NCBI GenBank assembly: GCA_013414795.1
Contig: CP058732.1
Coordinates: 794,501 to 858,500, forward strand
Origin: Candidatus Kapaibacterium sp.
GTDB taxonomy: Bacteria > Bacteroidota > Ignavibacteria > Kapaibacteriales > UBA2268
Reading direction: 5' to 3'
Length of the DNA stretch: 64,000 nt
Positions within the stretch are counted from its first letter, which is position 1; each line of letters begins with the position of its first letter. The notes below the pieces were generated by a model that worked only from the letters and a program-made list of their open reading frames with translations, searched no databases and was not told the DNA's origin. The translations under genes and the position numbers were made by a program. Below are positions 10,196 to 29,544 of the stretch, in pieces.

Positions 10196-11117
10196 TTTTG
10201 TTCTCCTTTATTGGTAATGGTGAAGTAGCGATAACGACCCAAGTTTTCCTACCGTCGGCACCAATGTGTGGTGCAGACCATTGAACTGGGAAATTCAATT
10301 GCTCCATTAAACGTTTTCGGATTTTGCTGTTTGGAAAGTTGGGCTCGTCGTCCCATCTGACTTTATGATAAGTAAAGTATTTCATAAAAAAGTGGGTCAT
10401 ATGTGTGAAAGGAAGATAAAACAAAAAGAAAGAAAGCAAATAAAGGTGAATGTAGCCTATGACGGGAATTTCTGGTAATGAAGAAAATGTGAAGGCGCTC
10501 TTATAAAATCCAAAAAATTCGCCAATAGCATTCTCGGAGTTTAGCAACCACACAAGGGAAGTAACATAAAGCATTCCTATTAAGAGAATATTGAAGTAAT
10601 GGCTTGGATTTGAATAAAGCCTTAGGTTTTCATCGAAAATCCTTTTGAACAACAAAACTATTGCTCCAATAATTCCCAAAATTGAAGCAAGCCAAAGAAG
10701 AATATTCAGAAATTGTGGGAACCAACTGGTTTGAAAATCCACATTATCTGGTGTAACCCCAAAAATTAAGCCCAAGAAAATTAAAAGAGTGGAAGCAATA
10801 TAGAGATAAAGAGCATAATGGAACGGAGCCGAGCCAAACCAAAGCGAACGATTGTGTTCCCAGACTCCTTTGAGTAGAACAATCTCTTGAAACATTGTCC
10901 AAAGTTCACCAAGCAAGTCTTTTTTTAGGGGTTTGGTCCACCATTCAAATTCTTCAAGATATGAGCCACCGTAATGGGCTTTTCCTTTCTCGTGGGCAAC
11001 GGGGTACAGTTCCCAACGAAGATGGACGGGCGCAGTTGCAATTTTAATCGCTTTACTAATAACGAGTATCAAGAAGATAACTAATCCAAAATAGAAGGCA
11101 AAGTGTAAAAATTCCAT
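10188..11117 (-). CDS. dsrM: DsrM, membrane cytochrome b subunit (NarI-like)
   Basis: A 309-residue membrane protein with about five to six hydrophobic segments. Histidines inside them (HYALYLYIAS, GYIHLYLLSFF, FTHMTHFF) are candidate heme b ligands as in NarI/HdrE proteins. Known role: quinol oxidation or quinone exchange and electron delivery to DsrK. The loop before the second helix (GKAHYGGSYLEEFEWW, KGVWEHNRSLW) is cytoplasmic by charge. It reads directly into dsrK. The 139-bp gap before it, after dsrC, holds two hairpins and is the largest gap in the dsrA-to-dsrK part of the island. Confidence 0.9.
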   Translation of the reverse strand: MEFLHFAFYFGLVIFLILVISKAIKIATAPVHLRWELYPVAHEKGKAHYGGSYLEEFEWWTKPLKKDLLGELWTMFQEIVLLKGVWEHNRSLWFGSAPFHYALYLYIASTLLIFLGLIFGVTPDNVDFQTSWFPQFLNILLWLASILGIIGAIVLLFKRIFDENLRLYSNPSHYFNILLIGMLYVTSLVWLLNSENAIGEFFGFYKSAFTFSSLPEIPVIGYIHLYLLSFFLFYLPFTHMTHFFMKYFTYHKVRWDDEPNFPNSKIRKRLMEQLNFPVQWSAPHIGADGRKTWVVIATSPLPIKENKNG

Positions 11118-11118
11118 A

Positions 11119-11250
11119 ATTACTCCATAGCTTTTTCAAAACTAACTTTTGAAGGAATAAGCCTGCAAAAATTAGTTTTGACGATATTTCGCAATCATAT
11201 TCGAAACAAGGAACCCATCAACTGGATTCCTTGTTTCGATGTAAAGTCAA
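11119..11250 (-). promoter_or_regulatory. dsrC-dsrM intercistronic region with two hairpins
   Basis: In the minus-strand RNA the first hairpin is a perfect 12-bp stem (CGAAACAAGGAA, 11202-11213, with 11227-11238). The second is a weaker 9-bp helix, CAAAACTAA...TTAGTTTTG, just before the dsrM ribosome site. Neither has a clean U-tract. They may limit read-through or protect the 3' end of the dsrC message, giving more DsrC than DsrMK; this is inference. Confidence 0.55.
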
Positions 11251-11256
11251 AGAACA

Positions 11257-11574
11257 TTACACACATCCAGTAGGCTTTGCAAGTCCAGCAACTTTACAGG
11301 CGCCTTTCGCTGGTCCCGATGGGAACAAGTCGTAAATTTGCTTCAAGGTAAAGCCAGTTTCCTTGCACAATTTACGAATCATCGGAGCAATACCATATTG
11401 TTTGTAATAATCGCGGAGATAGTTGATAACTTTCCAATGGTCTGCTGTCAACTCTGTGATCCCTTCTGTTGAAGCAAGAGCAAGAGCAACTCGCTCGTTC
11501 CACTCGTCGGGATTCGCCATAAAGCCGTCTTCGTCGACTTCGATTTTAATTTCGTTCCATTCAAATACTGGCAT
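11257..11574 (-). CDS. dsrC: DsrC, sulfur-carrier substrate protein of DsrAB
   Basis: A 105-residue protein from the ATG at 11574, the usual DsrC length; an ATG four codons upstream (11586) is possible. The start MPVFEW...VDEDGF aligns with the DsrC N-terminus. The C-terminal arm has both redox cysteines: C104 is the penultimate residue and C93 lies 11 residues before it (GACKVAGLAKPTGCV). Both are needed to carry sulfite-derived sulfur as a trisulfide between DsrAB and DsrK, so this is a true DsrC and not a TusE or single-cysteine relative. It lies between dsrL and dsrM and is followed by a strong hairpin. Confidence 0.96.
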   Translation of the reverse strand: MPVFEWNEIKIEVDEDGFMANPDEWNERVALALASTEGITELTADHWKVINYLRDYYKQYGIAPMIRKLCKETGFTLKQIYDLFPSGPAKGACKVAGLAKPTGCV

Positions 11575-11620
11575 TTTAACACCCATTATTAATTAAACAT
11601 ACTACCAAATACGCTATTTA

Positions 11621-13375
11621 TCATCCAGTGTAGATGACCTTTCCAGTTTCTGGGTCTCGCGGAGCAATTTGTCCCGTGAATGGATCCTTCATTTCAATGT
11701 ATCCGCAAGGACACGCCTCGGCACATTTATTACATCCTTTGCAAAGTTCAAGTTTAAATGTATATGTTTGGAAACGCTGTATCGGTCGGTGAATGACTTG
11801 GTCCTGGCAAATACTCCAACAAGTTCCGCAATCGAAGCAAGAACCACAACTCATACATCTTCGGGCTTCGTCTATAACTTGCTCTTCGGTCAATGTGCAA
11901 GTGATTTCCTTTTCCATCTGCGCCAGCCGTTCATCGGGAGGCAAACGCAAGGCTTCGTTTCTATATTTTTCAGTATAGTATGTAAATACAATCCTATCCT
12001 TTGTAGCAATTGGATAAGAAAGTTCGGGATCCTTTTCAATTGGTATACCTCGGAAAGTGCTGTGTATTGTTTCCGCAGCCATTCGACCCTGGTAAATTGC
12101 AATAGTAACCAAGCCAAGTTCAAGATCGTCACCACCAGAAAAAACTTTTGGGTCTTTAACTGAACGGAAGTTTTCGTCCACCTTAATCCAATCTTTTCCT
12201 TCACGCAAATGCTCCAATCCATAGAAGTCAGGTTCTTGACTGATTGCGGAAATAATCGTATCGCATTCGAAAATTTCTTCTGCTCCTTCTATAGGAACTG
12301 GCCTTCTTCTACCAGATTCATCTGGTTCGCCAAGTTGCATTTTCTGGCATTTAATTGCTTTCACCTTCTCGCCGTCAAGAATTAATTCTTTCGGTGCTAC
12401 GAGGAAAACGAAATTGACACCTTCTTCCTCGGCACCAACAATCTCTTCTTCTATTGCTGGCATTTCATTGCGTGTTCTTCGATACAGTATTGTCACATCA
12501 GCACCAAGTCGGCGAGAAACTCGCGCTGCGTCGATTGCAGTATCGCCACCACCGATTACCAGCACTTTCTTCCCAACATCTACTTTTCTGCCAGAATTAA
12601 CCATATTAAGAAATTCGGTTCCAGTGAAAACGTTCGGAGCATCTTCGCCAGGCAAACCAAGGTTCTTTCCTTTATGCGCCCCAATACCAACAAAGACTGC
12701 ATCATATTTTTCGCGTATTTCTTGGTAGGGGATATCGCGCCCGACTGCCACATTGCATTTAATTTCAACGCCGAGATCGACAATCCTTTGAATCTCAGCA
12801 TCGAGGACATCTTCGGGAAGTCTATATTTTGGAATACCATATCGAAGCATTCCACCAGGTTTGCTAAATGCTTCAAAGACAGTTACAGAATAACCTCGAC
12901 GAGCAAGTTGATAGGCGCACGACAGCCCCGCTGGTCCAGCTCCAATTACTGCAATCTTTTCGGGATATTTCTCTTCGGTTAACTTGGGAAGCGGGAATTT
13001 GTGCTTTAAGGCATAGTCGCCAATAAATCTTTCAACTCCGTGTATATTCAAAGAACCATCTTTATATTGTCGATTGCAATTCTCCTCGCAAGGATGGGGA
13101 CAAACTCGACCACAAACCGCGGGGAATGGGTTACGTTCCGCAAGAATCTCAAAAGCAAGTCGATAGGATTCATCATATGTTCTGCCGCGATCTTCCGTTT
13201 GTGCAATTGCAAGCAAAACCTCTCTGATTTTCGTAGCGTTTGGGCAACCAGAGCGACAGGGGGCAAGTTTGGGAACATGCGTTGGACGAAGCGGTGAAGT
13301 TTCGACCCCAGATGTTCCGGTGCTTGTTCCCCTTATTTTTCCAAGCGGTTTTTTATCTTTTTTTACAAGTCCCAT
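11621..13375 (-). CDS. dsrL: DsrL, NAD(P)H-linked iron-sulfur flavoprotein
   Basis: A 584-residue protein of the glutamate-synthase-small-subunit type. Seen: an N-terminal cysteine region (APCRSGCP, CGRVCPHPCEENC), an FAD Rossmann site VIGAGPAGLSCAYQ (~145), a second nucleotide site VLVIGGGDTAIDAAR (~270) for NAD(P)H, a cysteine-rich segment CMSCGSCFDCGTC (~516), and a C-terminal ferredoxin motif CKGCNKCAEACPCGY (~545). DsrL exchanges electrons between NAD(P)H and DsrAB. It is best known from sulfur oxidisers, where it works in reverse, but a DsrL-2 group occurs in sulfur/sulfate reducers. Presence with DsrD here points to the latter. ATG at 13375 follows a GGGG-type ribosome site. Confidence 0.92.
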   Translation of the reverse strand: MGLVKKDKKPLGKIRGTSTGTSGVETSPLRPTHVPKLAPCRSGCPNATKIREVLLAIAQTEDRGRTYDESYRLAFEILAERNPFPAVCGRVCPHPCEENCNRQYKDGSLNIHGVERFIGDYALKHKFPLPKLTEEKYPEKIAVIGAGPAGLSCAYQLARRGYSVTVFEAFSKPGGMLRYGIPKYRLPEDVLDAEIQRIVDLGVEIKCNVAVGRDIPYQEIREKYDAVFVGIGAHKGKNLGLPGEDAPNVFTGTEFLNMVNSGRKVDVGKKVLVIGGGDTAIDAARVSRRLGADVTILYRRTRNEMPAIEEEIVGAEEEGVNFVFLVAPKELILDGEKVKAIKCQKMQLGEPDESGRRRPVPIEGAEEIFECDTIISAISQEPDFYGLEHLREGKDWIKVDENFRSVKDPKVFSGGDDLELGLVTIAIYQGRMAAETIHSTFRGIPIEKDPELSYPIATKDRIVFTYYTEKYRNEALRLPPDERLAQMEKEITCTLTEEQVIDEARRCMSCGSCFDCGTCWSICQDQVIHRPIQRFQTYTFKLELCKGCNKCAEACPCGYIEMKDPFTGQIAPRDPETGKVIYTG

Positions 13376-13408: not shown

Positions 13409-13846
13409 TTAGTAACCACCGTACGGGTACATTCCTTGTTTAATCTTATTCATTTCCTCAAGTAAATTGTCGTGTTTGGTTTCATCATAAAGTAAATATT
13501 CAAGTAGATATTTAGCAATTGGGGATTTAACATCTTGCAATGCTTCCTTTGCAAGTGCAATAGTTTTCTTTTCGACCTCGTCGTGTTCTTCAACAAGAGA
13601 CCAGAATGCTGCCAATTCTTCTGGATTCATTGTAATTGGTTGCTTTTCGAAATGGTCAATGAGTAGTTGTTGGGTTCGCCGGTGCATAACTGAATCTTGA
13701 CGAATAATTTCCATCACCAAGTGAACCAAGGGATTATCGGTTTTCTTGATAATTTCAGTAGTATTTTTGATAGAGGCGTCTTCGATCTTTTGCCATCTTT
13801 TCAAAAGATCGACTAATTTTTCGATTAATTCTTTCTGTGTTGCCAT
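13409..13846 (-). CDS. Ferritin-like four-helix protein in the dsr cluster
   Basis: A 145-residue, almost wholly helical protein. Acidic and histidine residues are spaced as in ferritin-like or rubrerythrin-like diiron bundles: E18 and E25 in helix 1, ExxR..SVMHRR in helix 2, EEHDEVEKK in helix 3, and YDETKHDNLLEEM in helix 4. The ATG at 13846 is chosen because AAGGAG lies 9 nt upstream; a TTG eight codons earlier lacks such a site. It is soluble and has no cysteine motif. Its place between dsrN and dsrL suggests oxidative-stress or iron-handling support for the iron-sulfur/siroheme enzymes, but no function can be shown. Confidence 0.7.
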   Translation of the reverse strand: MATQKELIEKLVDLLKRWQKIEDASIKNTTEIIKKTDNPLVHLVMEIIRQDSVMHRRTQQLLIDHFEKQPITMNPEELAAFWSLVEEHDEVEKKTIALAKEALQDVKSPIAKYLLEYLLYDETKHDNLLEEMNKIKQGMYPYGGY

Positions 13847-13893
13847 TTTTTGTTTCTCCTTAATTGACAAAATAAAATTAATAACATTTAAAA

Positions 13894-15622: not shown

Positions 15623-16705
15623 CTAATATGTCAAATGAACAGAAGTCTTGTATGTTAGTCCAGCATGCTTGAAGTCGTCTATGTGTTGCTTAGTAAACTC
15701 AATTCCAGTTAATTTAAAGAACTTGGGCCAGCCGATTCTTTCAATCCATTCGCCAACACGTTCGTGTTTGTGTGCATTTGCTGCCCAAACTTCAACGATT
15801 TTCTTAACTGTTTCAACAACTTCGGGCCAGCGAGGTGGATTGTTAGGTAGATATGGTACAGCAAGTTTCGAGAACATCGGCTCTGTTCTTGCATTGGAAA
15901 CTTTTCCACCAACCCAAATGGAAATACCATCTGTTTGAGCGTTGTTCAATGGCATTGCTGGGCATACAGTATAACAGTTGGCGCAATACATACATTTCTC
16001 TTCGTCAACTTCTACACTTGGTTTACCTTGATAGGTCGATGGTCTAATTGCAGCAGTCGGGCACGAAGCAACAACATTCGGAATTTCGCATACCTTTGGC
16101 AACAACTCGTGATTAACTTTCGGTGGTCTTGTATGAATACCAAGAATAGCAATATCGGAGCAATGTACAGCCCCGCACATATTCAAACAGCAAGCAAGAG
16201 CCAACCGAATCTTTGCTGGCAATTTCATTGTCTTGAAATAATCAATCAATTCGTCCATTACTGCTTTAACAACACCAGAAGCGTCGGTAGCAGACGAGTG
16301 ACAGTGTATCCATCCCTGGGTATGGACCATACTCGATATAGCATTGCCAGTTCCACCAACTGGATGTCCGATAGATTCAAGTTCTTGAATCAAAGGATCT
16401 ATCTTCGATGGGTCTGTTAGTAAAAATTCAACATTATGTCGAGAGGTAAATCTTAAATAACCATCGGAATATTTTTCTGCCAATTCAGCAAATTTTCGAA
16501 TTTTAGAAGTACTCAAAAGTCTTGGGGACGCAGCCCTAACTGTGTATAATTTAGCGCCCGTCTCCGATGTATGAACAATTACGCCGGGACGGGGAATTTC
16601 GTGATATTTCCATTTGCCATAGTTTTCTTTGATAATCGGGGGCAAGAACTTTTCGTAATGCGGTGGTCCAATGTCTGTTATTCTTTTGGGTGCTGTTTCT
16701 GCCAT
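15623..16705 (-). CDS. dsrB: Dissimilatory sulfite reductase beta subunit
   Basis: A 360-residue DsrB. Seen: a siroheme-[4Fe-4S] binding set C135 ([11 protein letters not shown]), C172, C173 and C177 (CCLNMC), and a ferredoxin insert [12 protein letters not shown] (C238-C248) with C215 in [10 protein letters not shown]. All cluster ligands expected for a catalytically active subunit are present, including the double-cysteine motif. ATG at 16705 is chosen because GGAAGGAG precedes it; the upstream TTG frame extension is rejected. It works as an alpha2beta2 enzyme with DsrA in the cytoplasm, reducing sulfite to the DsrC trisulfide. Confidence 0.97.
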
Positions 16706-16742
16706 TTTTTTCTCCTTCCTTTTATTTAACAAAATTAATAAA

Positions 16743-17942
16743 TTATTCTTCTTCTAAATAATTTTCATAAAATACATAAGGATTGGTTCTTGGATGGCGT
16801 ATCATTTCGGGTTGTGGATCGAGTCCAACTGCTTCGAGGAAATTACCCAATCCAACACGTTGGACAAATTCGCCAATTCGTTCGCGGTTCTTTCCTTCTT
16901 CGATCCAGGGTTCAAGTATTGCATCAATTAATTCAACAATGTCGTTAAACGATTCTTCGTCGTCGAGTTTCACGAATGGAACAATGACAGAAGACAAGAT
17001 AGCCCCCTCGACTATTGGAGCCTTTGAACCAAGGAGAATCACAGCGCCACGATCCTTGCCCGGTGCAAGTGCCTTTGGCATTACATTTATACAATGCATA
17101 CAATGTCGGCAACTACTGTTGTCAATCTTCAATTCGTTACCATCCCATTCAATGCATTTACCGGGACATAATGCTACAACCTCCTTTACAATGTCTACAC
17201 CATTTTTTGCATACTCGCGGACCATTTCCTGGTCAATTTGAATTTCATCGCGCCAGGTTCCAATAATAGAGAAGTCGGCTCGGGCAACAGATGCAACACA
17301 ATCATTTGGACAACCAGAACATTTAATCTTAAACTTATATGGGAAGGCTGGTCGATGAATTTCGTCTTGATAATGTTGCGTTAAAAAGTAAGTAAGTTTC
17401 ATTGTATCGTAGCAAGCCCACTCGCAGCGAGCCATACCACAGCAACAACTTGGAGTACGAATGTCGGAACCAGAACCGCCAAGGTCGAAGCCCGCTTGTG
17501 TCAACTCGGCAAAAGTGGGTTCCAACTCCTCTGTCCTCGTTCCCAAGAAAATTATATCACCAGTGGAGCCGTGGAAATTTGTCAAACCAGAACCGTGCCT
17601 GTCCCAGATATCTGCAAGAGTGCGAAGCGCTTCGGCTGTGTAGAACCAGCCAGCAGGTTGATTGACACGCATCGTATGGAAGTGAGAAACATTTGGAAAT
17701 TCTTCGGGCAAGTCAGTATAGCGTCCAATAACCCCACCGCCATAGCCCATAACACCAACGATACCGCCGTGTTTCCAATGGCCAATTTTCTCGCGATAAG
17801 ACCTTTCGAGCAAGCCTAAAAGGTCGTTTGCCATTGGATTCCATTCAGCAGCAGCCTTGATTTCTTTAACGAAACTGGGCCAGGGTCCTTTCTCCAATTC
17901 GTCCAAAAGTGGGGTTTCGTACTTTTTCATTTGTTCTGCCAT
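16743..17942 (-). CDS. dsrA: Dissimilatory sulfite reductase alpha subunit
   Basis: A 399-residue DsrA, somewhat shorter than deltaproteobacterial forms. Seen: the cysteine-rich segment [13 protein letters not shown] (C166-C177), the second siroheme-cluster segment CSGCPNDC (C208-C215) and a ferredoxin domain with CPGKC and CRHCMHC (C259-C284). ATG at 17942 follows AAGGAG. The 37-bp spacing to dsrB and shared strand show one operon. The gene follows qmoC rather than starting a separate dsr transcript, linking APS and sulfite reduction at the transcript level. Whether this is a bacterial reductive-type lineage would need a tree; DsrD next to it supports that. Confidence 0.97.
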
Positions 17943-17969: not shown

Positions 17970-19208
17970 TTAGTTGTTTGAATTATATGTAACCAAAAGT
18001 TTTGGGCTCTTTTCTTCGCGTCCATACATTTTTAGAAACACTAAGCCAAGAAATCGGTAAACCATATGGGCAAACTTTGAATAAGGCATATACCAAAGCA
18101 AGAAATAAACTAAAACCAAATGGATGAAATAAGTCGGAAAGCCCAACACAGCAGTATGCATAAGTCGGAATAAAACACAAAGCAATCCAGTCGAAGCAAC
18201 GCCCCAAACAACCCAAAGGAACAGCATATCGCTATAACTGGATTTTCCGTGTTGCAAGTTGGTTTTATATCTTCTGATCAAGCACATTAAACTGCCAATA
18301 ACAATCAAGAAACCGGAAAGAATTCCAAAGAGTTTAACAAACAATCCGAAAAATTCACGCAATTCATCTGGGTTATGAATATCGAAGCCAGCAAACATAC
18401 GAATTGGCAAATTCATATCCTCGGGCAATATTTTTCCAAAAATGCCAATAACATTGATTACAACAACGCCAGTAGCAATCATTGCACCAAGGAAACCATA
18501 AAAGATTAACAAATGCCCCCAAAATCGAGTACTATTCGTTGTGCATCGGCTAAATTTCTTGTGCAAAAACAAATCGACAAGGACTTGCCAAACACTTTGC
18601 CAGAAAGTCCGCACTTTCGGCCTATTTAGTTTACACTGCAAATTGTCCCAATATCTCTTATAACCAAAGAATGTAAAAGCAAATATCAAAATGTTGCCAG
18701 AGATGAACAGCATTTCAATCGGACCGTGGGCGACAAATTCCTTGTAGCGGAAAGGTCCTTCTTTGATTGGAAACAAGTTGTTCAAATCCCAGTTCTGTGT
18801 AATCATAACTAAAAGTGAAATCAGAACTATTGGCAAAAGCAAGAGCAAAGGCAAATATTTGGGCGAACCCAATGCAGTACCCATAAATTTTGGCACAGCA
18901 AAATGCTTGTAAACATAATCTCGCAGAGCAGCCATCAAATCGGCTGGGCGTGCTCCTCTTGGGCATTTTTCGCTGCACTCCATACAACCGTGACAAAGCC
19001 ACAGGTCTGGGTCCGAAAGCAATTCTTCTTTAAGTCCCCAACTTGCCCAAATCATTTCTTTTCTTGGAAAAGCGTTCTCTTCTGGCGATAAATCGCAAAC
19101 AACAGAGCAAGTCGCACATTGATAACACTTTTTAAGCGTTTCGCCCCCACGCTTCTTTAACTCTTTTATAAACTCGACATCATTCTTAACTTCAATTAAG
19201 TCACGCAC
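17970..19208 (-). CDS. qmoC: QmoC-like quinone-interacting membrane oxidoreductase subunit
   Basis: A 412-residue fusion of an HdrC-like ferredoxin part and an HdrE-like cytochrome b part. Seen: CYQCATCSVVC (C28-C38) and CHGCMECSEKCP (C72-C82), then six or so membrane helices with histidines in GHLLIFYGF, RLMHTAVLG and IHLVLVYFLLW. QmoC takes quinol electrons and, with QmoAB, passes them to AprBA. The start is a GTG at 19208 after GAGGG. Odd: no qmoA or qmoB lies next to it; the place they usually take after aprA holds two small cysteine proteins. Either QmoAB are encoded elsewhere or this subunit has another partner. Confidence 0.88.
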   Translation of the reverse strand: MRDLIEVKNDVEFIKELKKRGGETLKKCYQCATCSVVCDLSPEENAFPRKEMIWASWGLKEELLSDPDLWLCHGCMECSEKCPRGARPADLMAALRDYVYKHFAVPKFMGTALGSPKYLPLLLLLPIVLISLLVMITQNWDLNNLFPIKEGPFRYKEFVAHGPIEMLFISGNILIFAFTFFGYKRYWDNLQCKLNRPKVRTFWQSVWQVLVDLFLHKKFSRCTTNSTRFWGHLLIFYGFLGAMIATGVVVINVIGIFGKILPEDMNLPIRMFAGFDIHNPDELREFFGLFVKLFGILSGFLIVIGSLMCLIRRYKTNLQHGKSSYSDMLFLWVVWGVASTGLLCVLFRLMHTAVLGFPTYFIHLVLVYFLLWYMPYSKFAHMVYRFLGLVFLKMYGREEKSPKLLVTYNSNN

Positions 19209-19222
19209 TTTGCCCTCAAAAT

Positions 19223-20038
19223 TTATTTGACTTTATGCTTATCCAAATCAAGATAATCCTTGCGTAAGTTGAATAATTTTTCTCCAAAAATGCTGAACCT
19301 CAACCATTCGAAGCCAAATCGGATCAATTCGGCGTCGTCAGTTCTAATCTTCTCTTTTCGTTCGTCGTCAACATCAAATCGTTTGAAAAAAGTGCTGTCG
19401 AAAAGAAATTTTCTGAATTTATCGATATCGTAGCAAACCATATAGAACATTTCCAACTTCACTGGTTCAATCGCACGAGCAGTAACAAAGAATTTATGCA
19501 ATGAAATCTCTTTAAACAATTCTCCAAGTTCTTGATATTCACTCAAGTTTTGGTCGTCGAACCATTCATCAACGGTCCATTCCTTATCTTCTTCAAAACC
19601 TTTACAAACATCTTCTTTTATTAAAAAATAGAACTCTTCGCCATTATTCAATTTCTCGGCTTCGTTTGGCGAAGCCACCCCGAGCGGAAACATTCTACAA
19701 CTCCAGGGTCGGTCCTGGTATACAGCACAGCCATTTTCACCAAGGAAAGGACAATCGAGCGTCCTGTCGTCCATTTTTAACATTACTATTGGATGGCGAA
19801 GATTTGAAGCAATTGGTAAAATCGTGTATTTAGCGAGAAATTCGGATGATGTTATTCCAAGCGCCTTTCTCAATCTTGCAATGTCGTAAGGAGTTAGAAA
19901 AATATTAACATTGTTACAGCATTTGTTGAAACATTCCACTCCCGGATGGCAGTGGAACTTAAATTTTGCATTCTTATCCAATTTTGGATAAGAGGCAATT
20001 AATTCTTCATTTAAAACTCTTGGATTTTTATCAAACAT
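19223..20038 (-). CDS. YkgJ-family cysteine cluster protein
   Basis: A 271-residue soluble protein. The N-terminal part carries the YkgJ metal-binding pattern: CHPGVECFNKCC near residue 30, a middle region (LTPYDIARLRKALG), then DCPFLGENGCAVYQDRP and CRMFPLG near 94-122. The C-terminal half is helical and charged, without recognisable motif. YkgJ proteins are predicted zinc- or iron-sulfur-binding proteins of unknown reaction. It overlaps the zinc-ribbon gene upstream by one base (TAATG-like junction) and precedes qmoC by 14 bp, so it is part of the sulfate-reduction operon. A role in assembly or electron transfer for Apr/Qmo is inference. Confidence 0.8.
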   Translation of the reverse strand: MFDKNPRVLNEELIASYPKLDKNAKFKFHCHPGVECFNKCCNNVNIFLTPYDIARLRKALGITSSEFLAKYTILPIASNLRHPIVMLKMDDRTLDCPFLGENGCAVYQDRPWSCRMFPLGVASPNEAEKLNNGEEFYFLIKEDVCKGFEEDKEWTVDEWFDDQNLSEYQELGELFKEISLHKFFVTARAIEPVKLEMFYMVCYDIDKFRKFLFDSTFFKRFDVDDERKEKIRTDDAELIRFGFEWLRFSIFGEKLFNLRKDYLDLDKHKVK

Positions 20039-20316
20039 TATTGTTGCCTTTCAATTTCCCCAACATAAGCATTTTTAATATCGTTTTCTTTTGTAACTGG
20101 ATATGGTCCTTGATAACCGTTGAAGGGATTAATCATAAACCGATAGGAAGCGTGGACGTGATAGTTATTCCACATCCAATCCCAACCTCTTTTAAAATAT
20201 CCACAATCGTCGTTTAAACAGATATAAAGATATTCTACTCCCCAATCGGAGTCTACCGGCAAGTAAACTTTCTTAACTTCGCTTCCACAATGTTTGCAAT
20301 AATATTTCTCTTCCAT
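20038..20316 (-). CDS. Small zinc-ribbon protein (ogr/Delta-like finger)
   Basis: A 92-residue protein with an N-terminal two-pair cysteine ribbon: CKHCG at residues 7-11 and CLNDDCGYF at 33-41, a pattern like ogr/Delta-type zinc fingers or rubredoxin-like knuckles. The rest is rich in aromatic residues (GWDWMWNNYHVH). ATG at 20316 follows GGGAGG. It is coupled to the YkgJ gene. I know similar small zinc-finger proteins near apr/dsr genes in sulfate reducers only from general memory; the function is unknown. Confidence 0.75.
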   Translation of the reverse strand: MEEKYYCKHCGSEVKKVYLPVDSDWGVEYLYICLNDDCGYFKRGWDWMWNNYHVHASYRFMINPFNGYQGPYPVTKENDIKNAYVGEIERQQ

Positions 20317-20353
20317 TTTTGCCTCCCTATTATTTTCTAGTGGGGATAGAAAG

Positions 20354-20442
20354 GCAGAATTAAGATGAATGAAATCATCTTAACCCTGCATTTCGCTCCC
20401 GTTTTTCAAATAACATAGTGTCCCGGGTTGCCCCGGGACACT
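20354..20442 (-). promoter_or_regulatory. Two strong hairpins between aprA and the zinc-ribbon gene
   Basis: In the minus-strand RNA an 11-bp perfect stem (AGTGTCCCGGG, 20417-20427, with 20432-20442) closed by a GCAA tetraloop comes 7 nt after the aprA stop. It is followed by TATGTTATTTG, not a clean U-tract. A second hairpin (20354-20389; TTAAGATGA/TCATCTTAA with a flanking GCAG/CTGC) lies before the next ribosome site. The pair probably reduces read-through from the highly expressed sat-aprBA part into the downstream genes, or stabilises the aprA 3' end. Confidence 0.7.
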
Positions 20443-20449
20443 TTCTTAA

Positions 20450-22321
20450 TTAAAAGATATGGATAATATCCCTTGTGAAGACATTCCAAGTATCGGTCTT
20501 GCGGTCGTAGGTCATATTCACAAACTTTTCCCAATTCGGGTCAAGATTGGGTTTGTCTGCACGGAAGTAGTAGCCGGGCCAACGAGTTTCTTCGCGGAAG
20601 AGAATTGCACGAATGTGGGCTTCGGCTTGATACATTCGGTGAATGTTTTCCCAGCATCGCATCAATTCATGCAAATCGGCGGCAGCCAATTTTTCGCTAT
20701 CTTCCTTCAAGAATTGCATAAGTTGCAATCCTTTTTCGAGCAAAGGCTTGCTTGTCTTGAATTGCGAAGAAACACCGCCAGCATATTCGTCCATAATCTT
20801 TTGCAATCGGAACATAAACATCTTCGGTCGGATGTAGTTCGGATTAATGTCTGGGTCGGTTGTCTCTTTGTAATGTGCCTCGTAAACTTCAAGAGGCTTG
20901 TAAATCTTCTTCTTAAGTTCCTCGATTTGATTTGCGTCGTAATTCAATTGCGGATTTTCCTTAACGATGTATTCAATTGCACCCTTTGCTGCAATTCGAC
21001 CTTCCGCATGAGAGCCAGAAGAGAACTTATGGCTTGAAGCACCAGAAGCGTCGCCGGCGCAGAACAAACCTTTAACAGTCGACATATTTGGATAGCCCCA
21101 GAAATATTCCGGTGGTGCAAGGTCTTTTGGACCACTAACCCAAGCACCAGAGGCACCAGAGTGTGAACCAATGAAGTATGGTTCCGCAGCAGCAATTTCC
21201 GATGGTGCTTGTTCTGGGAAGGTGTTCGTTGCAGCCCAAAGAATTGCTTGGGAAATTGTCATATCGAGGAAGTCTTCCCATGCTTCTTCTTCGAGTTCTT
21301 TCATTTTCTTCTTGTATGCCTTCGGGTCGTCTTTATATTGGTCGGCAAGTTTTTGAATTGCTTCTTCTGTACGCATATAGATTGGACCCTTGCCTTCCAT
21401 TACGTCGAGCATTCCAAGCCAGTTGCGTAAGTTCGCCGGGATTGGTTTCACCTTACCATAGGGCAACCATTTCTCCAATTCGTCGGTTCGTTCAACCATA
21501 TAATCGCCGCCAAATGCATTTGTGGCTCGCGATTTAAACAACAAGAACCAGGCTCCAACTGGGCCATAAGCGTCTTTGAAACGAACTGGAATGAATCGAA
21601 CTTCCTGGCAAGTCATTTCGGCACCAGCCATTATTGTAAAGTATGCACTGGAACCACTATTCCAAGGTGGATACCAAGCGCGGCCAAGACCTTCGCCAGT
21701 TGAACGGGGTCGGAATACGTGGACAGCACCGCCCATTGCAACAAGAGTTGCTTTCGCTTTAAATACATAGAATTTGTTTTCGCGAACACTAAACCCAACC
21801 GCACCAGCACAACGATCGCCGTCCATCAATGGCTCAACAATAAATATTCTTTCGTAAATGTTTTCCATTCCAAGAGCATTCTTTGCAGCCTCGGCAACAA
21901 TAACTTTGTAAGATTCACCATTAATCATAAGTTGCCAACGGCCTTCGTGGACATAGTTCCCTTGTTCATCTTTCCAAATCGGAAGTCCCCATTTTTCGAA
22001 AAGATGAACTGTCGAGTCCACGTGTCGGGCAATGTTTGCTACCAAATCTTCGCGGGTAATTCCCATCAAGTCGTTTCGGACATAATCAACGTAATCTTTT
22101 ACAGTATTCTTGCCCGAATTTAGGTCGACATAAAGGTTAATAGCGGAAAGACCCATAGCAACAGCGCCGCTTCGGTCCAAAGCAGCCTTGTCGACTAATG
22201 TTACTTTCAATCCATATTTCTTTGCCCAATATGCTGCCTCGACTGCTGCACCGCAAGCAGCCATACCACCACCAACAATCAATAAATCGGTGTTGACTTC
22301 TACTGTTTCAAATGGTCCCAT
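20450..22321 (-). CDS. aprA: Adenylylsulfate (APS) reductase alpha subunit
   Basis: A 623-residue flavoprotein of the fumarate-reductase superfamily. Seen: the FAD site DLLIVGGGMAACGAAVEAA near residue 11, GAVAMGLSAINLY, VAMGGAVHVFRPRSTGEG, GSHSGASGAWVSGP and FCAGDASG...SGSHAEGR in the C-terminal FAD domain, which together are characteristic of AprA. It reduces APS to sulfite and AMP with AprB in the cytoplasm. ATG at 22321 follows AAGGAG. It is 33 bp downstream of aprB, in the order sat-aprB-aprA found in many sulfate reducers and sulfur oxidisers; direction is inferred from the neighbouring dsrD. Confidence 0.97.
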   Translation of the reverse strand: MGPFETVEVNTDLLIVGGGMAACGAAVEAAYWAKKYGLKVTLVDKAALDRSGAVAMGLSAINLYVDLNSGKNTVKDYVDYVRNDLMGITREDLVANIARHVDSTVHLFEKWGLPIWKDEQGNYVHEGRWQLMINGESYKVIVAEAAKNALGMENIYERIFIVEPLMDGDRCAGAVGFSVRENKFYVFKAKATLVAMGGAVHVFRPRSTGEGLGRAWYPPWNSGSSAYFTIMAGAEMTCQEVRFIPVRFKDAYGPVGAWFLLFKSRATNAFGGDYMVERTDELEKWLPYGKVKPIPANLRNWLGMLDVMEGKGPIYMRTEEAIQKLADQYKDDPKAYKKKMKELEEEAWEDFLDMTISQAILWAATNTFPEQAPSEIAAAEPYFIGSHSGASGAWVSGPKDLAPPEYFWGYPNMSTVKGLFCAGDASGASSHKFSSGSHAEGRIAAKGAIEYIVKENPQLNYDANQIEELKKKIYKPLEVYEAHYKETTDPDINPNYIRPKMFMFRLQKIMDEYAGGVSSQFKTSKPLLEKGLQLMQFLKEDSEKLAAADLHELMRCWENIHRMYQAEAHIRAILFREETRWPGYYFRADKPNLDPNWEKFVNMTYDRKTDTWNVFTRDIIHIF

Positions 22322-22354: not shown

Positions 22355-22798
22355 TTACTTATTAAGTGTGAACAATGAATCCAATTTCAGCGAGCCAGGT
22401 TCTGTGAACAGCAGCGGGCTTGAAATATCGTCGGTTGCAGTTTCCCAACCACCATCTGGGACTGCAGAACCCTCTGGGGTTGTTCGAATTGGGAACTTGA
22501 AACGCTTCAATTCACCATTGCGGAACTTAACAGTCCACATAATCGAATCGGAACTACGCATTGGCGTAACTTGTGCTCCTAATGGCACGAAATCAGCATA
22601 ACCACGCACTTCGATTGCCTGGTTTGGGCAAATCTTAACGCAATTGTAGCATTCCCAGCACAATTCTGGCTCGCGATTGTAAGCCTTCATAGTCTCTTTG
22701 TTCAAGACCATAAGGTCGTTTGGGCAAATATACTGGCAAGCAGTCTTGTCCAGTGCTTTGCACCCATCACATTTGTCGACTATTACGAAGCTTGGCAT
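22355..22798 (-). CDS. aprB: APS reductase beta subunit
   Basis: A 147-residue iron-sulfur protein. Seen: two 4Fe-4S motifs, CDGCKALDKTACQYICP (with the AprB-type longer spacing) and CWECYNCVKICP, followed by the AprB-specific tail (VRGYADFVPLGAQVTP, then PEGSAVPDGG) that wraps around AprA. It passes electrons to the FAD of AprA. ATG at 22798 follows AAGGAG. Length is normal. Confidence 0.97.
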   Translation of the reverse strand: MPSFVIVDKCDGCKALDKTACQYICPNDLMVLNKETMKAYNREPELCWECYNCVKICPNQAIEVRGYADFVPLGAQVTPMRSSDSIMWTVKFRNGELKRFKFPIRTTPEGSAVPDGGWETATDDISSPLLFTEPGSLKLDSLFTLNK

Positions 22799-22854: not shown

Positions 22855-24075
22855 TTATTCTCCTGTTGCTGCTCTATGCAGCTTGATTTCTACTTTTTCT
22901 TGCAATCCAGAGTAATACTCGCGAAGAATGGCAAGAACTTCGGGACGCGAGAATTCCTTTGGCACTTCGAGCCCTTCGGAAAGTGCCTTACGCAACATAG
23001 TTCCGCTGAGCAAGAGTCTGTCTTCCTTTCCGTGTGGGCAGGTCTTCATCGAAGCCATTCCCTCACATTTGTAGCAATAGAAAGTCCAGTCAATTTTCAA
23101 CGGCTGGCAAAGGAGCGCGCCTTCCCAAAGTTCGTCGAAGATTTCTTGTGCTTCGAATGGACCATAATAGTTTCCAACACCAGCGTGGTCGCGACCAATT
23201 ATCATATGCGTACATCCATAATTCTGACGGAACAACGCATGGAGCAATGCTTCGCGCGGACCAGCATATCGCATATCCAATGGGTATCCTCCTTGAACAA
23301 CTGTGTCTTTCACGAAGTAATTTTGGACGAGAACATCAATGCATCGAACCCGAACATCTGCCGGAATGTCGCCAGGCTTTAGTTTACCAACCAATTGGTG
23401 AATGTACAAACCATCAGAGACTTCCAATGCTATTTTTGCAAGATACTCGTGCGAACGATGCATTGGGTTTCGCAATTGTAATGCTGCTATTGTTTTCCAG
23501 CCACGTTCCGCAAAAATCTTTCTCGATTCCTCTGGCCTTTGATAAATCCCCTTGAATTGTACTGGAAATGGTCCTTCGCTTAATACCTTCACTGGACCAG
23601 CAAGGTTTATTTCCTCTTGGTCCATTACCATTTTCACGCCGGGATGTTCGATATCAGTAGTCTTGTAGACATTTTTGCATTCGAATTCCTTGTCGATTTT
23701 GTACTTTTCTTCAACTTTCATCGTTGCCATTATTTCGCCGTACTCATCGGAATAAAGAGCAACTTCGTCGCCAATCTTAATCTTGTCGGCTGTTTCTTTG
23801 TCGGTGGAAACTGTTATCGGAATAGGCCAGAAAAGTCCGTTCTTGCTTGGCATTTTCATTTCTTCGCAAACGCTTTTCCAATCGTCATAGCCCATAAAAC
23901 CAGTGAGAGGGGTGAAGCCACCAATTCCCATCATTATTAAATCGCCAGTTTTACGGCTCGTAATATTGACTTTTAGCAACTTTTGGGCTTTTTTCTTTTC
24001 CTCGGCCAATTCTTCGCCTTCGAGCAGGAGTTTTATTAACTCGGGACTTCCGTGTGGGCTGATTAATTTTGCCAT
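22855..24075 (-). CDS. sat: Sulfate adenylyltransferase (ATP sulfurylase), dissimilatory type
   Basis: A 406-residue homo-oligomeric type ATP sulfurylase without a C-terminal APS kinase domain. Seen: the ATP-binding [15 protein letters not shown] (~199-213), [20 protein letters not shown] (the HxxH-like and GRDHAG motifs) and the cysteine set [16 protein letters not shown] near 325-340, which in this lineage forms a zinc site. It makes APS from sulfate and ATP. ATG at 24075 follows GAAAGG. It is the first gene of the island. Confidence 0.96.
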
Positions 24076-26193: not shown

Positions 26194-26856
26194 TTAACAG
26201 CCTTCTCGCTTTGGCTTGCTTGCTCCTCCCGGTTTCGGAAGACTAACCGCTGGCTTTTGCACTTGTGGTGTTTGCTTCTGCACTTCAATCTGTGTTTGCA
26301 CTGCCTTTCCTTCGGAAATCAAAATTGGCGAACCACCAAAATACGAAGAAATTTGTTTCATTTTTTCAAATTTTTCTTTGCCGGCTGTGGTTGTATCCAG
26401 TGGAATTTTGGGGAAAACTACTTCGTCGGTCCAGCCTTGATATCCACCCTTTAAAACCAAAACATCTTTATAATCAAGGGCTTTCAATGCCAGCCAAGCA
26501 TTCAATGATTTCGTATCATCTTCTGAGAAAAGTATTATTTTTTGATTCCGTTGAAGAACATTTTGATACAAATCCTTTGAAGAAAGATTAATTGCTCCCG
26601 GGATTGTTCCTTTTTCATATTCGTTTGGATTTCTTAAATCGACAATTACAAAAAAATTTGTTCCGGAAATAATTTTCTCGGCAAGTTCCATTGGGGTAAT
26701 ATATTTCGACGGCGAATTTATTTCGAGTGAAAACTTCTTCACATCGACTCTTTCGTAAGTGGCTTTGGTTGGGTCGTGAGTGAACAATGCTATAATCCCC
26801 AAAAGTATAGCAAACAGTCCAAGCTTCTGATTCAGACTCAAATCTTTGAATTTCAT
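26194..26856 (-). CDS. Membrane-anchored rhodanese-like protein lacking the active-site cysteine
   Basis: About 220 residues: one N-terminal membrane anchor (residues 10-26), a periplasmic rhodanese domain (~52-145; IVDLRNPNEYEKGTIPGAINL and VLKGGYQGW) and a flexible Gln/Pro-rich tail ending in KREGC. In the catalytic loop the usual cysteine is replaced (ILFSEDDTKS). The only cysteine in the whole protein is the last residue. ATG at 26856 follows GGGAGG. It is the last gene of the psr operon. Either the domain is a sulfur-binding rather than transferring module, or the C-terminal cysteine on the mobile tail serves as sulfur carrier; both are inference. Confidence 0.85.
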   Translation of the reverse strand: MKFKDLSLNQKLGLFAILLGIIALFTHDPTKATYERVDVKKFSLEINSPSKYITPMELAEKIISGTNFFVIVDLRNPNEYEKGTIPGAINLSSKDLYQNVLQRNQKIILFSEDDTKSLNAWLALKALDYKDVLVLKGGYQGWTDEVVFPKIPLDTTTAGKEKFEKMKQISSYFGGSPILISEGKAVQTQIEVQKQTPQVQKPAVSLPKPGGASKPKREGC

Positions 26857-26857
26857 A

Positions 26858-27457
26858 CTACCTCCCAAACAATTTTGATTGAAACTTCCTCTCTATGTAT
26901 GTTGCGCCGGCGAAACCACAAACTGCAATCAAAACAACAGCAAAAACTACCACTCCGTAGGGTATGTGAAGTACTTCGTAAATAGTGGCTTTCCCCATTG
27001 GAGTCGACTTTGCAAAATCTGCAATCCAAGGATAAATCTCGCCGTAAATAAAAGTGCCAATAAAAACGCCAATCAAAAAGAACAAACCGTCGAGCCTTCC
27101 TATTGATGTCGATACAACTGATGTCCCCGGACAATAACCACCAATGATAAAACCAAACCCAAGGAGGAAACCGCCAACAATTTGCGGAACAACATAGGTC
27201 GGGGTAAAGTAAATGAGATTTATATCTAAAAAACCAAAGACGCCAAGAAAATAAACACCCAACATTGCAGTAACAATTGCAGTGAACATCACTTTGAATA
27301 CAGTCATATCGTAAAGGTAGAATTGTGCTGCAAGTTTTCTGGCGCTACCAAAACCGGCGCGTTCGAGGAAGAAACCGAAAGCAATGCCAATAAGAAAGGC
27401 AATGATTAAACTGAACTCCTCGCCAAACATTCCAAATTTGTAAAATGGTGCTATCAT
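26858..27457 (-). CDS. YeeE/YedE-type sulfur-compound transporter, half-size (second half)
   Basis: 199 residues, about five membrane helices. Seen: ERAGFGSARKL near residue 32 and GGYCPGTSVV near 107, the cysteine motif that in the YeeE/TsuA thiosulfate channel family relays the substrate. Known full-length members contain two such halves; here the halves are two adjacent genes, overlapping by 4 bp (ATGA). The partner is the next gene upstream. Context with PsrABC suggests uptake of thiosulfate or polysulfide-derived sulfur into the cytoplasm. ATG at 27457 follows GGAGG. Confidence 0.85.
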   Translation of the reverse strand: MIAPFYKFGMFGEEFSLIIAFLIGIAFGFFLERAGFGSARKLAAQFYLYDMTVFKVMFTAIVTAMLGVYFLGVFGFLDINLIYFTPTYVVPQIVGGFLLGFGFIIGGYCPGTSVVSTSIGRLDGLFFLIGVFIGTFIYGEIYPWIADFAKSTPMGKATIYEVLHIPYGVVVFAVVLIAVCGFAGATYIERKFQSKLFGR

Positions 27458-28020
27458 AACCAGAACCTCCTAAATAAATATGCAATCAAATATCCGCCTG
27501 CAAATACAGAAAGCATAAATAACCAACTTCCAAGATTTAGAAGTGAACCACCAGTGAGAGCCTGCCCGCTTGTACAACCGCCGGCAAGTTTTGCTCCAAT
27601 ACCCATCAACGCTCCGCCAATGGTCGCAAATATTAATCTTTTGGTGTTTGTAATTTTAGGACCTTTCTCGATTTTAAATTTCACTCGATTCGCAAAAATT
27701 CCAGAAATGAAACCCCCAACTAAAACTCCAAGCACTTCAAACACAAGCCAATCTTTCAAAGGATTTCCCGCAGAGAGATAGTTGCGATAGAACTCATTAT
27801 TCTGTGCGTGTTCTGGTGCAATTTTCAACACGCCAGTTGCAACAACTGATGAAACTGCCCCCGAAGCACCAAGCCCTCGCCCCATAATTACAAAAGCCAG
27901 TAGGAGAACAATTCCCAGACCAATACCAGCCAGGTACGGATTCCAGTAAGGCTTTTCTGGAAAACTTTCTTTGTGGAAAGCCTTCGTTGTTTCAAGATTC
28001 TCTTGTCCTTTCTCTTCCAT
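27454..28020 (-). CDS. YeeE/YedE-type sulfur-compound transporter, half-size (first half)
   Basis: About 188 residues. A short charged cytoplasmic start is followed by five membrane segments and the motif GGCTSGQALTGG (near residue 150), the counterpart of GGYCPGTS in the partner. GRGLGASGAVSS near residue 53 is also typical of the family. ATG at 28020 is preferred because AGG lies 7 nt upstream; an earlier in-frame ATG overlaps the psrC-like gene. Together with the 26858-27457 product it should form one transporter. Confidence 0.85.
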   Translation of the reverse strand: MEEKGQENLETTKAFHKESFPEKPYWNPYLAGIGLGIVLLLAFVIMGRGLGASGAVSSVVATGVLKIAPEHAQNNEFYRNYLSAGNPLKDWLVFEVLGVLVGGFISGIFANRVKFKIEKGPKITNTKRLIFATIGGALMGIGAKLAGGCTSGQALTGGSLLNLGSWLFMLSVFAGGYLIAYLFRRFWL

Positions 28021-28039
28021 ATCAATACCTATTTTATTA

Positions 28040-28993
28040 TTAAAATACTGTAAATACATTTCTAGGCCAATGACTAAATTGTCCAGCGTAAACTACAATA
28101 AAACGAAGAATAAGTCCACCAAGCATTACCAAGATTGGTGCAACATTAGTATGCACAATTTTGTTGTTTACAGAAAACATTTGAATTATCAATGGAATAA
28201 CAATTCCCGAAAGAACAACAAAAATCCAAAACGAAGCAGCATAAGGTCCCGAAAGTATGAGTTTCGCTGCATCGATATGAACTTGGCTCGAAGAGACAAA
28301 GCCAATAATCATCAGCAAGATGATTATTAATTCTGCAATCAGAAAGCCATTGTCCGCTTTTGCAAGCAAATGCCTTTCTTCTGGATCTTTACCTATTAAA
28401 TGGACCAATGCTGCTGCGCTCGACAAACCAGATGTTAAGAATAGTGTCCAAAGCATCGGACTATTCCAGGCTGGTCGAGCAGAGAACCCACTTAAAAGAA
28501 TTGCAGTGTATGCGCCAAGCAGACCACCAAAGACCATACTTAACGAACCTATTAATTTTACAAGGAAAGCGTTCGACCGTATTTTTTCCGAAAGCCTACC
28601 CAAGGCTGGAAATTTCTCCGCTACGTTTTCTGGTATACGAATTAACAATGTTACAAACAAAATCGGATAGATGATTAACAAAATCCAAGCACCCCAGGAC
28701 ATTGGTGATTGCCATTTGAAATTGAGGTATAGATTCCAAACATACAGTTTGTGTTCCAAATCTAAAAACAGGGCTAACATACCAATTGAAATTGCAACTA
28801 TCCCAATTAGCGGAATTCGAAAACAAGAGCAAAGGGTGTTTTTTGTTCTTCCAGTTAAGATAAAATATCCAGAAATAAGCATCATTCCGCCAACGAGACC
28901 TCCCAGGAATAGATATACTGGAATTTCCCAACCCCAAATATGCAAAGTTGGGTCTATTAAATGATTATGTCTTGTTATTACCAATTCATTCAT
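28040..28993 (-). CDS. psrC: NrfD/PsrC-type quinol-oxidising membrane subunit
   Basis: 317 residues with eight to nine membrane segments (WGWEIPVYLFLGGLVGG at the first) typical of NrfD/PsrC. Acidic and basic residues within the membrane (DLEHKLYVW) are usual for the quinol site. It links the periplasmic PsrAB to the menaquinone pool. ATG at 28991-28993 follows AGGAGG. It lies 9 bp after psrB. The symbol is given by operon position; thiosulfate (PhsC) or tetrathionate systems have similar subunits. Confidence 0.87.
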   Translation of the reverse strand: MNELVITRHNHLIDPTLHIWGWEIPVYLFLGGLVGGMMLISGYFILTGRTKNTLCSCFRIPLIGIVAISIGMLALFLDLEHKLYVWNLYLNFKWQSPMSWGAWILLIIYPILFVTLLIRIPENVAEKFPALGRLSEKIRSNAFLVKLIGSLSMVFGGLLGAYTAILLSGFSARPAWNSPMLWTLFLTSGLSSAAALVHLIGKDPEERHLLAKADNGFLIAELIIILLMIIGFVSSSQVHIDAAKLILSGPYAASFWIFVVLSGIVIPLIIQMFSVNNKIVHTNVAPILVMLGGLILRFIVVYAGQFSHWPRNVFTVF

Positions 28994-29002
28994 TGTTGCC
29001 TC

Positions 29003-29542
29003 CTAAATTAAGTAATATACTTGTGGTTTGGTTCCACTTTCGGGATTTAATACGCGATACTTGCGTGATTGAAGTAATTTGGAAACCTCGCTATTGGGGT
29101 CTTCGAGGTCTCCAAAATACATACAATGCGTTGGACAAGTTGCAACACACGCTGGGTCCAATCCTTGCACAACTCTATGTTCGCAAAATGTACATTTCGT
29201 AGCGTAACCATCTGGATGAATAAAGCGTGCATCGTATGGACAAGCAGCAATACAAGCCTTGCATCCAATACATTTGTCGTAATCAACTAGAACAATTCCG
29301 CCAATGTCCGAAATATGGCTTGCTCCCGTCGGGCAAGTGTACACACAAGGCGGATTGTCGCAGTGATTGCATCGTTCAGAGCGTATCTCCATATGCAAGT
29401 TTGGAAATTTCCCTATCGTTTCGTAGGTTATCCAATCCCGATTGAAACCTTCTGGTACATTGTTTTCTGTTTTGCAGGCAACGACGCAATCCATACACCC
29501 AACGCATTTTGTCGTATCTATAACCATTGCATATCTTGCCAT
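29003..29542 (-). CDS. psrB: PsrB-type four-cluster ferredoxin subunit
   Basis: About 179 residues with four 4Fe-4S motifs: CVGCMDCVVAC, CNHCDNPPCVYTCP, CIGCKACIAACP and CTFCEHRVVQGLDPACVATCP. This DMSO-reductase-family electron-transfer subunit carries electrons between PsrC and PsrA. ATG at 29542 with AAAGG upstream is preferred over the GTG two codons earlier. It starts 3 nt after psrA ends. It has no signal peptide; such subunits are carried across the membrane with their Tat-bearing PsrA. Confidence 0.92.
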   Translation of the reverse strand: MARYAMVIDTTKCVGCMDCVVACKTENNVPEGFNRDWITYETIGKFPNLHMEIRSERCNHCDNPPCVYTCPTGASHISDIGGIVLVDYDKCIGCKACIAACPYDARFIHPDGYATKCTFCEHRVVQGLDPACVATCPTHCMYFGDLEDPNSEVSKLLQSRKYRVLNPESGTKPQVYYLI

Positions 29543-29544
29543 TT

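Follow-up and report, generated by a model that had tools for sequence, protein, structure and literature searches.

Sulfate-respiration genes of the window

The 64,000-nucleotide stretch of contig CP058732.1 from Candidatus Kapaibacterium sp. analyzed here (the window) carries on its minus strand a cluster of sulfate-respiration genes in the order sat-aprB-aprA-znr-ykgJ-qmoC-dsrA-dsrB-dsrD-dsrN-153-aa hypothetical-dsrL-dsrC-second dsrMK. Our concern is with two small genes of this cluster, znr and ykgJ, which code for a zinc-ribbon-like and a YkgJ-like protein and lie between aprA, the gene for the alpha subunit of adenosine 5'-phosphosulfate (APS) reductase, and qmoC. The initial annotation had read this region as aprA followed by a zinc ribbon, a YkgJ protein and qmoC without qmoA or qmoB; this description is right, every gene being where it was placed on the minus strand, and neither qmoA nor qmoB lies between or beside aprA, znr, ykgJ, qmoC and dsrA of the window.

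APS reductase, which is central to the global sulfur cycle, is encoded by aprB for its beta subunit (22355..22798; 208.5 bits with TIGR02060), which contains the lysine of a MWTVKFR peptide, and aprA (20450..22321; 906.7 bits with TIGR02061, cut-off 641.75), which contains that of a GPVGAWFLLFK peptide. The znr gene (20038..20316) codes for a 92-residue protein with a match to PF04606 (Ogr_Delta-like; E 2e-4) that falls below the cut-off, and ykgJ (19223..20038) for one of 271 residues that scores 42.6 bits with the PF03692 (CxxCxxCC) domain, for which the gathering threshold is 23. The product of qmoC (17970..19208; 412 residues from a GTG start) matches the NF038018 equivalog model with 403.4 bits against a cut-off of 300 and combines an HdrC-like dicluster N-terminus with a cytochrome-b-like membrane part; both four-cysteine motifs are seen in the inspected part of a ten-sequence alignment. 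These genes are followed by dsrA (16743..17942; TIGR02064, 581.7 bits) and dsrB (15623..16732; TIGR02066, 526.3 bits), and the products of aprA, aprB, dsrA, dsrB and qmoC all exceed the curated cut-offs of their families. The cluster opens with the open reading frame (ORF) of the ATP sulfurylase, sat (22855..24075), which stands before aprB in relatives too; sat, dsrD, dsrN and dsrC were named from their sequences and the published gene order, outside the support of the family scans.

The stop of znr and the start of ykgJ have one base in common, and the intergenic gaps measure 14 nucleotides between ykgJ and qmoC, 27 between qmoC and dsrA, and 133 between aprA and znr. The last of these contains two stem-loops on the minus strand (20442-20417 with 11 pairs and 20389-20354 with 15 pairs), detected by a scan for terminator-like patterns that returned 13 sites in 8 kb as against 7.8 +/- 3.2 in shuffled sequence. 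These elements (20354-20442) are possibly involved in attenuation or mRNA stability, and may separate an abundant sat-aprBA message from that of znr-ykgJ-qmoC.

A predicted QmoABC complex encoded at two places

A search of the genome, a single contig of 2.66 Mb that is 97.65% complete, with an HdrA profile recovered adjacent qmoA and qmoB genes (G000:C1:2102693-2106213) at a distance of 1.29 Mb from qmoC. Both products are HdrA-like, with 434 residues in QmoA (10909-12213 of locus L043) and 738 residues, counted from the likely start, in QmoB (8693-10909 of the same locus). The latter combines a ferredoxin-like segment with a C-terminus like that of VhuD/MvhD, and its residues 604-736 match NF045873 at 73.2 bits, below the family cut-off of 215. 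The two names follow from the HdrA-type matches, the sizes, the pairing and published metagenome-assembled genomes (MAGs), no NCBIfam qmoA or qmoB model being among the matches. In the QmoC equivalog match, the HdrA-like flavoproteins QmoA and QmoB and the MvhD/VhuD-like C-terminus of QmoB, the system resembles QmoABC as it occurs in sulfate reducers and in green sulfur bacteria; unlike those, it has qmoAB unlinked from qmoC, and znr-ykgJ separates qmoC from aprA. Thus, qmoABC is not contiguous after aprBA in this genome, a contiguity that is usual but not required. By homology, QmoC and the distant QmoA and QmoB would form a complete QmoABC, which would link menaquinol and AprBA by electron transfer, as Qmo does in other organisms.

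Of the 60 genomes searched, ten, including that of the window, have a qmoC above the cut-off, and every one of the ten also has a relative of QmoB (100% identity for self and 59-83% for the others, with the matches in G011 and G022 being fragments on contig ends). G004, from the same genus and with no qmoC above the cut-off, yielded only HdrA-like matches of at most 40% identity. The linkage of the genes varies among the relatives. A single contig of G018 (L045) has the order qmoA-qmoB-[transposase-like ORF]-sat-aprB-aprA-znr-ykgJ-qmoC-dsrAB, while qmoAB and qmoC are on the same contig at about 17 kb in G002 and about 138 kb in G040. In eight of the 80 loci of the collection scan described below (L071, L072, L077, L078, L085, L096, L106 and L111, with L106, judging by its length, being the contig of G018), qmoB stands before sat and a qmoC-like gene, at 27-47% identity, after ykgJ. 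The simplest account of this variability would be that qmoAB lost its linkage. The ORF between qmoB and sat in G018 (L045 5768-6928) was recognized as transposase-like from its sequence, and it might represent a possible route to such unlinking in the relatives.

A published counterpart is found in 'Ca. Thermonerobacter thiotrophicus', which in all likelihood belongs to the same genus as the window organism. The available text of that report (PMC6338057, 2019) describes three hot-spring MAGs with sat-aprBA-hyp-hyp-qmoC-dsrAB, in which qmoAB lies elsewhere: two of the MAGs have the genes side by side, and the third lacks a recovered qmoA. Transcripts of 20 genes of the pathway, including qmoAB, reach their maximum at night and in the transition periods. 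The likeness extends over the gene order, the two genes between aprA and qmoC, the location of qmoAB elsewhere, the presence of dsrD with dsrL and the second dsrMK. The Qmo arrangement of the window is hence ordinary and already published, and what looks new is in the gap genes: left as conserved hypotheticals in the portions of the 2019 report available to us, they are here a znr and a PF03692 YkgJ that are companions of AprBA in many groups.

To account for the lone qmoC, the initial annotation had offered either QmoAB encoded elsewhere or a QmoC that couples to AprBA without QmoAB through YkgJ, DsrL or another Hdr. The first proposal is borne out by the qmoAB pair on the same contig. As QmoAB is present in the genome, a substitute partner for QmoC is unnecessary, and we dropped this candidate. 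The local gene order is the one observation in its favor; YkgJ also accompanies linked aprBA-qmoABC, and nothing supports a coupling of this kind. The annotation had itself named qmoAB elsewhere with co-expression as the finding that would tell against a substitute, and this is essentially what is seen, with the expression part coming from the probable congener, where qmoAB expression is highest together with that of the other pathway genes in the accessible text of PMC6338057. The strong form of the proposal is already refuted, and we regard a QmoC working without QmoAB as exceedingly improbable.

The znr-ykgJ pair as a companion of aprA

The comparison of gene order in relatives that the initial annotation had recommended placed znr and ykgJ between aprA and qmoC in all ten qmoC-bearing genomes of the family, the window's own included; the order is therefore not a matter of chance. 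We then used ten YkgJ proteins as queries in a collection scan and kept the best 80 of 128 relatives. Their loci span Zixiibacteriota, Bacteroidetes/Kapabacteria/Kryptoniota/Ignavibacteria, Calditrichaeota, LCP-89, Omnitrophota, Sumerlaeota, Armatimonadetes, Dehalococcoidales, Deltaproteobacteria and others. The stretches retrieved for these best 80 of 128 loci contain znr in 76 instances, aprA in 65, sat in 56 and qmoC or a relative in 50. Among the 15 loci without a local aprA, 12 come from genomes with an aprA above the cut-off elsewhere and one from a genome with a partial copy, and the genomes of L095 and L103 have no aprA at the locus or elsewhere.

The pair was also observed near AprBA at loci that have qmoA, qmoB and qmoC together (L116, L129, L136 and L139), and hence it does not substitute for QmoAB. 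The description in the initial annotation of two small cysteine proteins in the usual place of qmoAB stands. In family f29 (inferred green sulfur bacteria), aprBA-qmoABC is followed by ykgJ, and in all four ykgJ loci fetched (L247-L250) znr sits in the gap from qmoC to ykgJ, next to ykgJ and in the opposite orientation.

Drawing whole genomes is a less biased way to examine the association. We drew 118 genomes evenly from the phylum to which G075 belongs, which we take to be Desulfobacterota. Among them, aprA scored above the cut-off in 51 and the YkgJ profile matched at E<=1e-8 in 53, with YkgJ present in 48/51 aprA-bearing genomes versus 5/67 others (Fisher exact 1.5e-23). The five with YkgJ and no full aprA are G107 and G166, both weak, G154, which has aprA fragments, G185, whose ykgJ pair adjoins qmoA (L150), and G190. 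The ykgJ genes of this draw are often in tandem, and are sometimes beside apr or qmo and otherwise elsewhere; in L219 (G116) and L220 (G152) two YkgJ genes lie between aprA and qmoA. In the phylum of the window organism, aprA is found in 13 of 395 genomes and YkgJ at the same threshold in 28, namely 12/13 with aprA and 16/382 without. The scores of the latter matches are bimodal, with 14 genomes at or above 287.9 bits and the other 14 at or below 79.3; above this gap, a threshold picked after the gap had been seen, YkgJ occurs in 12/13 genomes with aprA versus 2/382 others.

A member of the YkgJ family is therefore seen to accompany aprA in many bacterial groups, including both sulfate reducers and inferred green sulfur oxidizers, and its presence in 48/51 and 12/13 aprA-bearing genomes gives this uncharacterized protein the look of a missing part of the pathway. 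In being small and uncharacterized and attached to an apr-qmo operon, the pair recalls DVU0851, the last gene of the qmo operon of D. vulgaris; judged by its description rather than by sequence, DVU0851 differs in that the available text of PMC3125180 reports no homologues outside Desulfovibrio. Among the matches listed in the open-licence literature, a scope outside which most subscription journals fall, we found no paper on the pair or on an AprBA methylase, nor any that links YkgJ to sulfate reducers; of those listed for the name qmoD, none was relevant by title. We place at about 85% the probability that the window carries an ordinary sulfate-respiration cluster with a split QmoABC, to which is added a conserved and apparently undescribed znr-ykgJ accessory pair of the AprBA-Qmo module.

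Several observations weigh against this interpretation. The 80 loci were picked by their similarity to the query and are loci rather than species, so that some genomes count more than once, and at least seven of them are, judging by their lengths, the same contigs as the family genomes of the 10/10 count. The Fisher value of the Desulfobacterota draw treats related genomes as independent, and the co-occurrence counts leave out the archaeal and proteobacterial aprA genomes, those of proteobacterial sulfur oxidizers included. No YkgJ match was obtained in the aprA-bearing genomes G079, G103 and G180 of that draw, nor in the f29 genome G308, whose aprA is on a 5.9-kb contig; either the association has exceptions or these four genomes are incomplete. 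Many members of the draw have ykgJ away from apr, and among the stretches retrieved from it the znr profile matched in three genomes only (G110, G135 and G078). Searches of solved structures gave nothing similar to the YkgJ model (best Foldseek E 2.3; no VIA-align Z >= 2 among 167 chains), and the tie of YkgJ and znr to AprBA is itself inferred from sequence.

Candidate functions of the pair

The YkgJ proteins display eight family-invariant cysteines (C30, C36, C40, C41, C96, C104, C114 and C145) in an alignment of 71 sequences (A3). The same eight recur in 68 further distinct sequences, with C96 present in 67 and an unread residue (X) in one. The first four constitute an N-terminal CX5CX3CC motif that is invariant in A3 and in 68/68 of the further sequences. 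PF03692 is matched by all 71 members (E<=1), and four cysteines of znr are likewise invariant in 60/60 aligned ORFs. An AlphaFold model of YkgJ computed with an alignment attained a mean predicted local distance difference test (pLDDT) score of 87.0 and a predicted template modeling (pTM) score of 0.84, the single-sequence fold being poor (pLDDT 42.5); a search of the PDB with the sequence profile gave one chance-level row (E 0.85). We posit that YkgJ probably holds an iron-sulfur (or zinc) site on its eight cysteines, that znr would help to bind or present the target, and that the most likely job of the pair would be to modify or mature AprBA.

One form that such a role might take is suggested by FliB, a characterized PF03692-type relative that acts as a flagellin lysine-N-methylase. 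In the available text of PMC8598068, its [4Fe-4S] cluster is held by CX4CX3CC and is essential for methyl transfer, and eight conserved cysteines are described. YkgJ is similar in its PF03692-type N-terminal cysteine motif ending in CC and in the number of conserved cysteines, and differs in having CX5CX3CC and a genomic partnership with APS reductase rather than flagellin. Methylated lysines are on record in D. vulgaris. According to the accessible portions of PMC3125180, the GPVGAWFLLFK lysine of ApsA carries one, two or three methyl groups, and trimethylation is reported for ApsB (on MWTVKFR) and for two peptides of DsrC, one of which could alternatively be read as acetylated. The same text has MetK and AhcY co-purifying with ApsA and names no methyltransferase. 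The available text of a hydrothermal-vent modification study (PMC5012046) describes no search for lysine methylation. We accordingly put YkgJ forward as a candidate lysine methylase of AprBA, a FliB-type [4Fe-4S]/S-adenosylmethionine enzyme acting on the two peptides of AprA and AprB and perhaps on DsrC, though we hold this to be a doubtful assignment rather than a favored one. It is equally tentative to see in it the lysine methyltransferase still missing from dissimilatory sulfur metabolism, assisted by znr and acting on AprA and probably on AprB and DsrC.

In a scan of the 71 members of A3, the FliB family NF038110 was the sole NCBIfam family matched below E 0.01, by three of them (best E 9.1e-5). 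E values of this size mean scores far below the curated cut-off of 85 bits, one of 7.6e-6 having corresponded to 25.7 bits in the FliB search of the Desulfobacterota draw, and the YkgJ of the window has no match to NF038110 at all. Since there were no FliB sequences for a profile-profile test, the link consists of the shared Pfam domain and the three weak NCBIfam matches, a similarity at the level of the domain. The 118 genomes of the Desulfobacterota draw contain no FliB protein above the cut-off, and nine of the 13 weak FliB matches in them fall where the profile of the apr-linked YkgJ finds nothing; in the 395 genomes of the window organism's own phylum none was found at E<=1e-10, in a search whose controls gave no match either.

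The target residues too argue against YkgJ as the methylase. The AprA lysine is K in 60/60 and 63/63 readable loci (17/80 unreadable), that is, in 123/123, including the three genomes without YkgJ, and it aligns with a K of an archaeal 3'-phosphoadenosine 5'-phosphosulfate (PAPS) reductase; it does not discriminate between genomes with and without YkgJ. A correlation of this lysine with the presence of YkgJ, which we tried, was uninformative, the lysine being invariant either way. At the AprB site, a T replaces the K conserved elsewhere in G116 and G152 despite their tandem YkgJ genes. The genomes that peptide identity marks as Desulfovibrio-like, which are nearest to the measured methylation, have one weaker-scoring YkgJ that is off apr where seen; in L174 and L175, which have one such YkgJ, the AprB and AprA peptides are identical to those of D. 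vulgaris. In an alignment with the A. fulgidus enzyme, the lysine of AprA falls on K281, which is three positions past L278. Phe-A277 and Leu-A278 of that enzyme we take to be in the substrate channel.

The genomic associations are explained equally well if YkgJ, with znr, is a maturation chaperone that supplies AprB with its [4Fe-4S] clusters or shields them, or that assists the flavin adenine dinucleotide (FAD) loading or assembly of AprA. The position of the genes after aprA and before qmoC is consistent with this role, as are the eight invariant cysteines in a protein whose presumed clients are iron-sulfur and flavin proteins. The two hairpins after aprA could keep the pair at a lower expression level than the enzyme, which would fit a helper. 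Iron-sulfur enzymes are generally served by the housekeeping Isc/Suf factors, and we count this against a dedicated chaperone; moreover, the open-licence literature listings turned up no PF03692-type chaperone. Maturation of this kind is accordingly a real possibility, albeit one that we would not assume. It would still be useful for the production of AprBA in other hosts and for the annotation of sulfate reducers. If YkgJ instead proves to be a methylase of AprA, AprB and DsrC, the question left open by the 2011 study of D. vulgaris would be answered, and methylation would emerge as a nearly universal step by which sulfate reducers and green sulfur bacteria alike build a functional APS reductase, with ykgJ offering a single-gene handle on sulfate respiration.

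It is also conceivable, if unlikely, that the pair is a sensor of redox state, oxygen or metal that tunes the expression or activity of Apr-Qmo. Both proteins are cysteine-rich, and the pathway of the probable congener is expressed at night and at low oxygen according to the available text of PMC6338057. The family scan assigned neither YkgJ nor znr to a DNA-binding family, save for the sub-cut-off Ogr_Delta-like match of znr, which speaks against this alternative.

Neighboring genes

Between dsrN and dsrL lies the gene for the 153-residue hypothetical protein (13409-13870), which is conserved at 73-93% identity in five genomes of the family. It was not found in G018, has no Pfam match, and occurs near dsr or sat in seven of the 80 loci of the collection scan. 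In the adjoining region (8582-13375), dsrL is found alongside dsrD and a second dsrMK pair, an unusual mix that is already recorded in the available text of PMC6338057. The second DsrK and DsrM score below their family cut-offs (302.9 bits versus 400 and 36.6 versus 300, respectively), and the DsrL-like protein exceeds the cut-off of a general subfamily model only. Upstream of the cluster (26194-31746), a reading of the sequence points to genes for a rhodanese-like protein, two YeeE/YedE-like proteins, and NrfD-like, ferredoxin-like and molybdopterin-oxidoreductase-like proteins, for which a role in the use of thiosulfate or polysulfide is possible.

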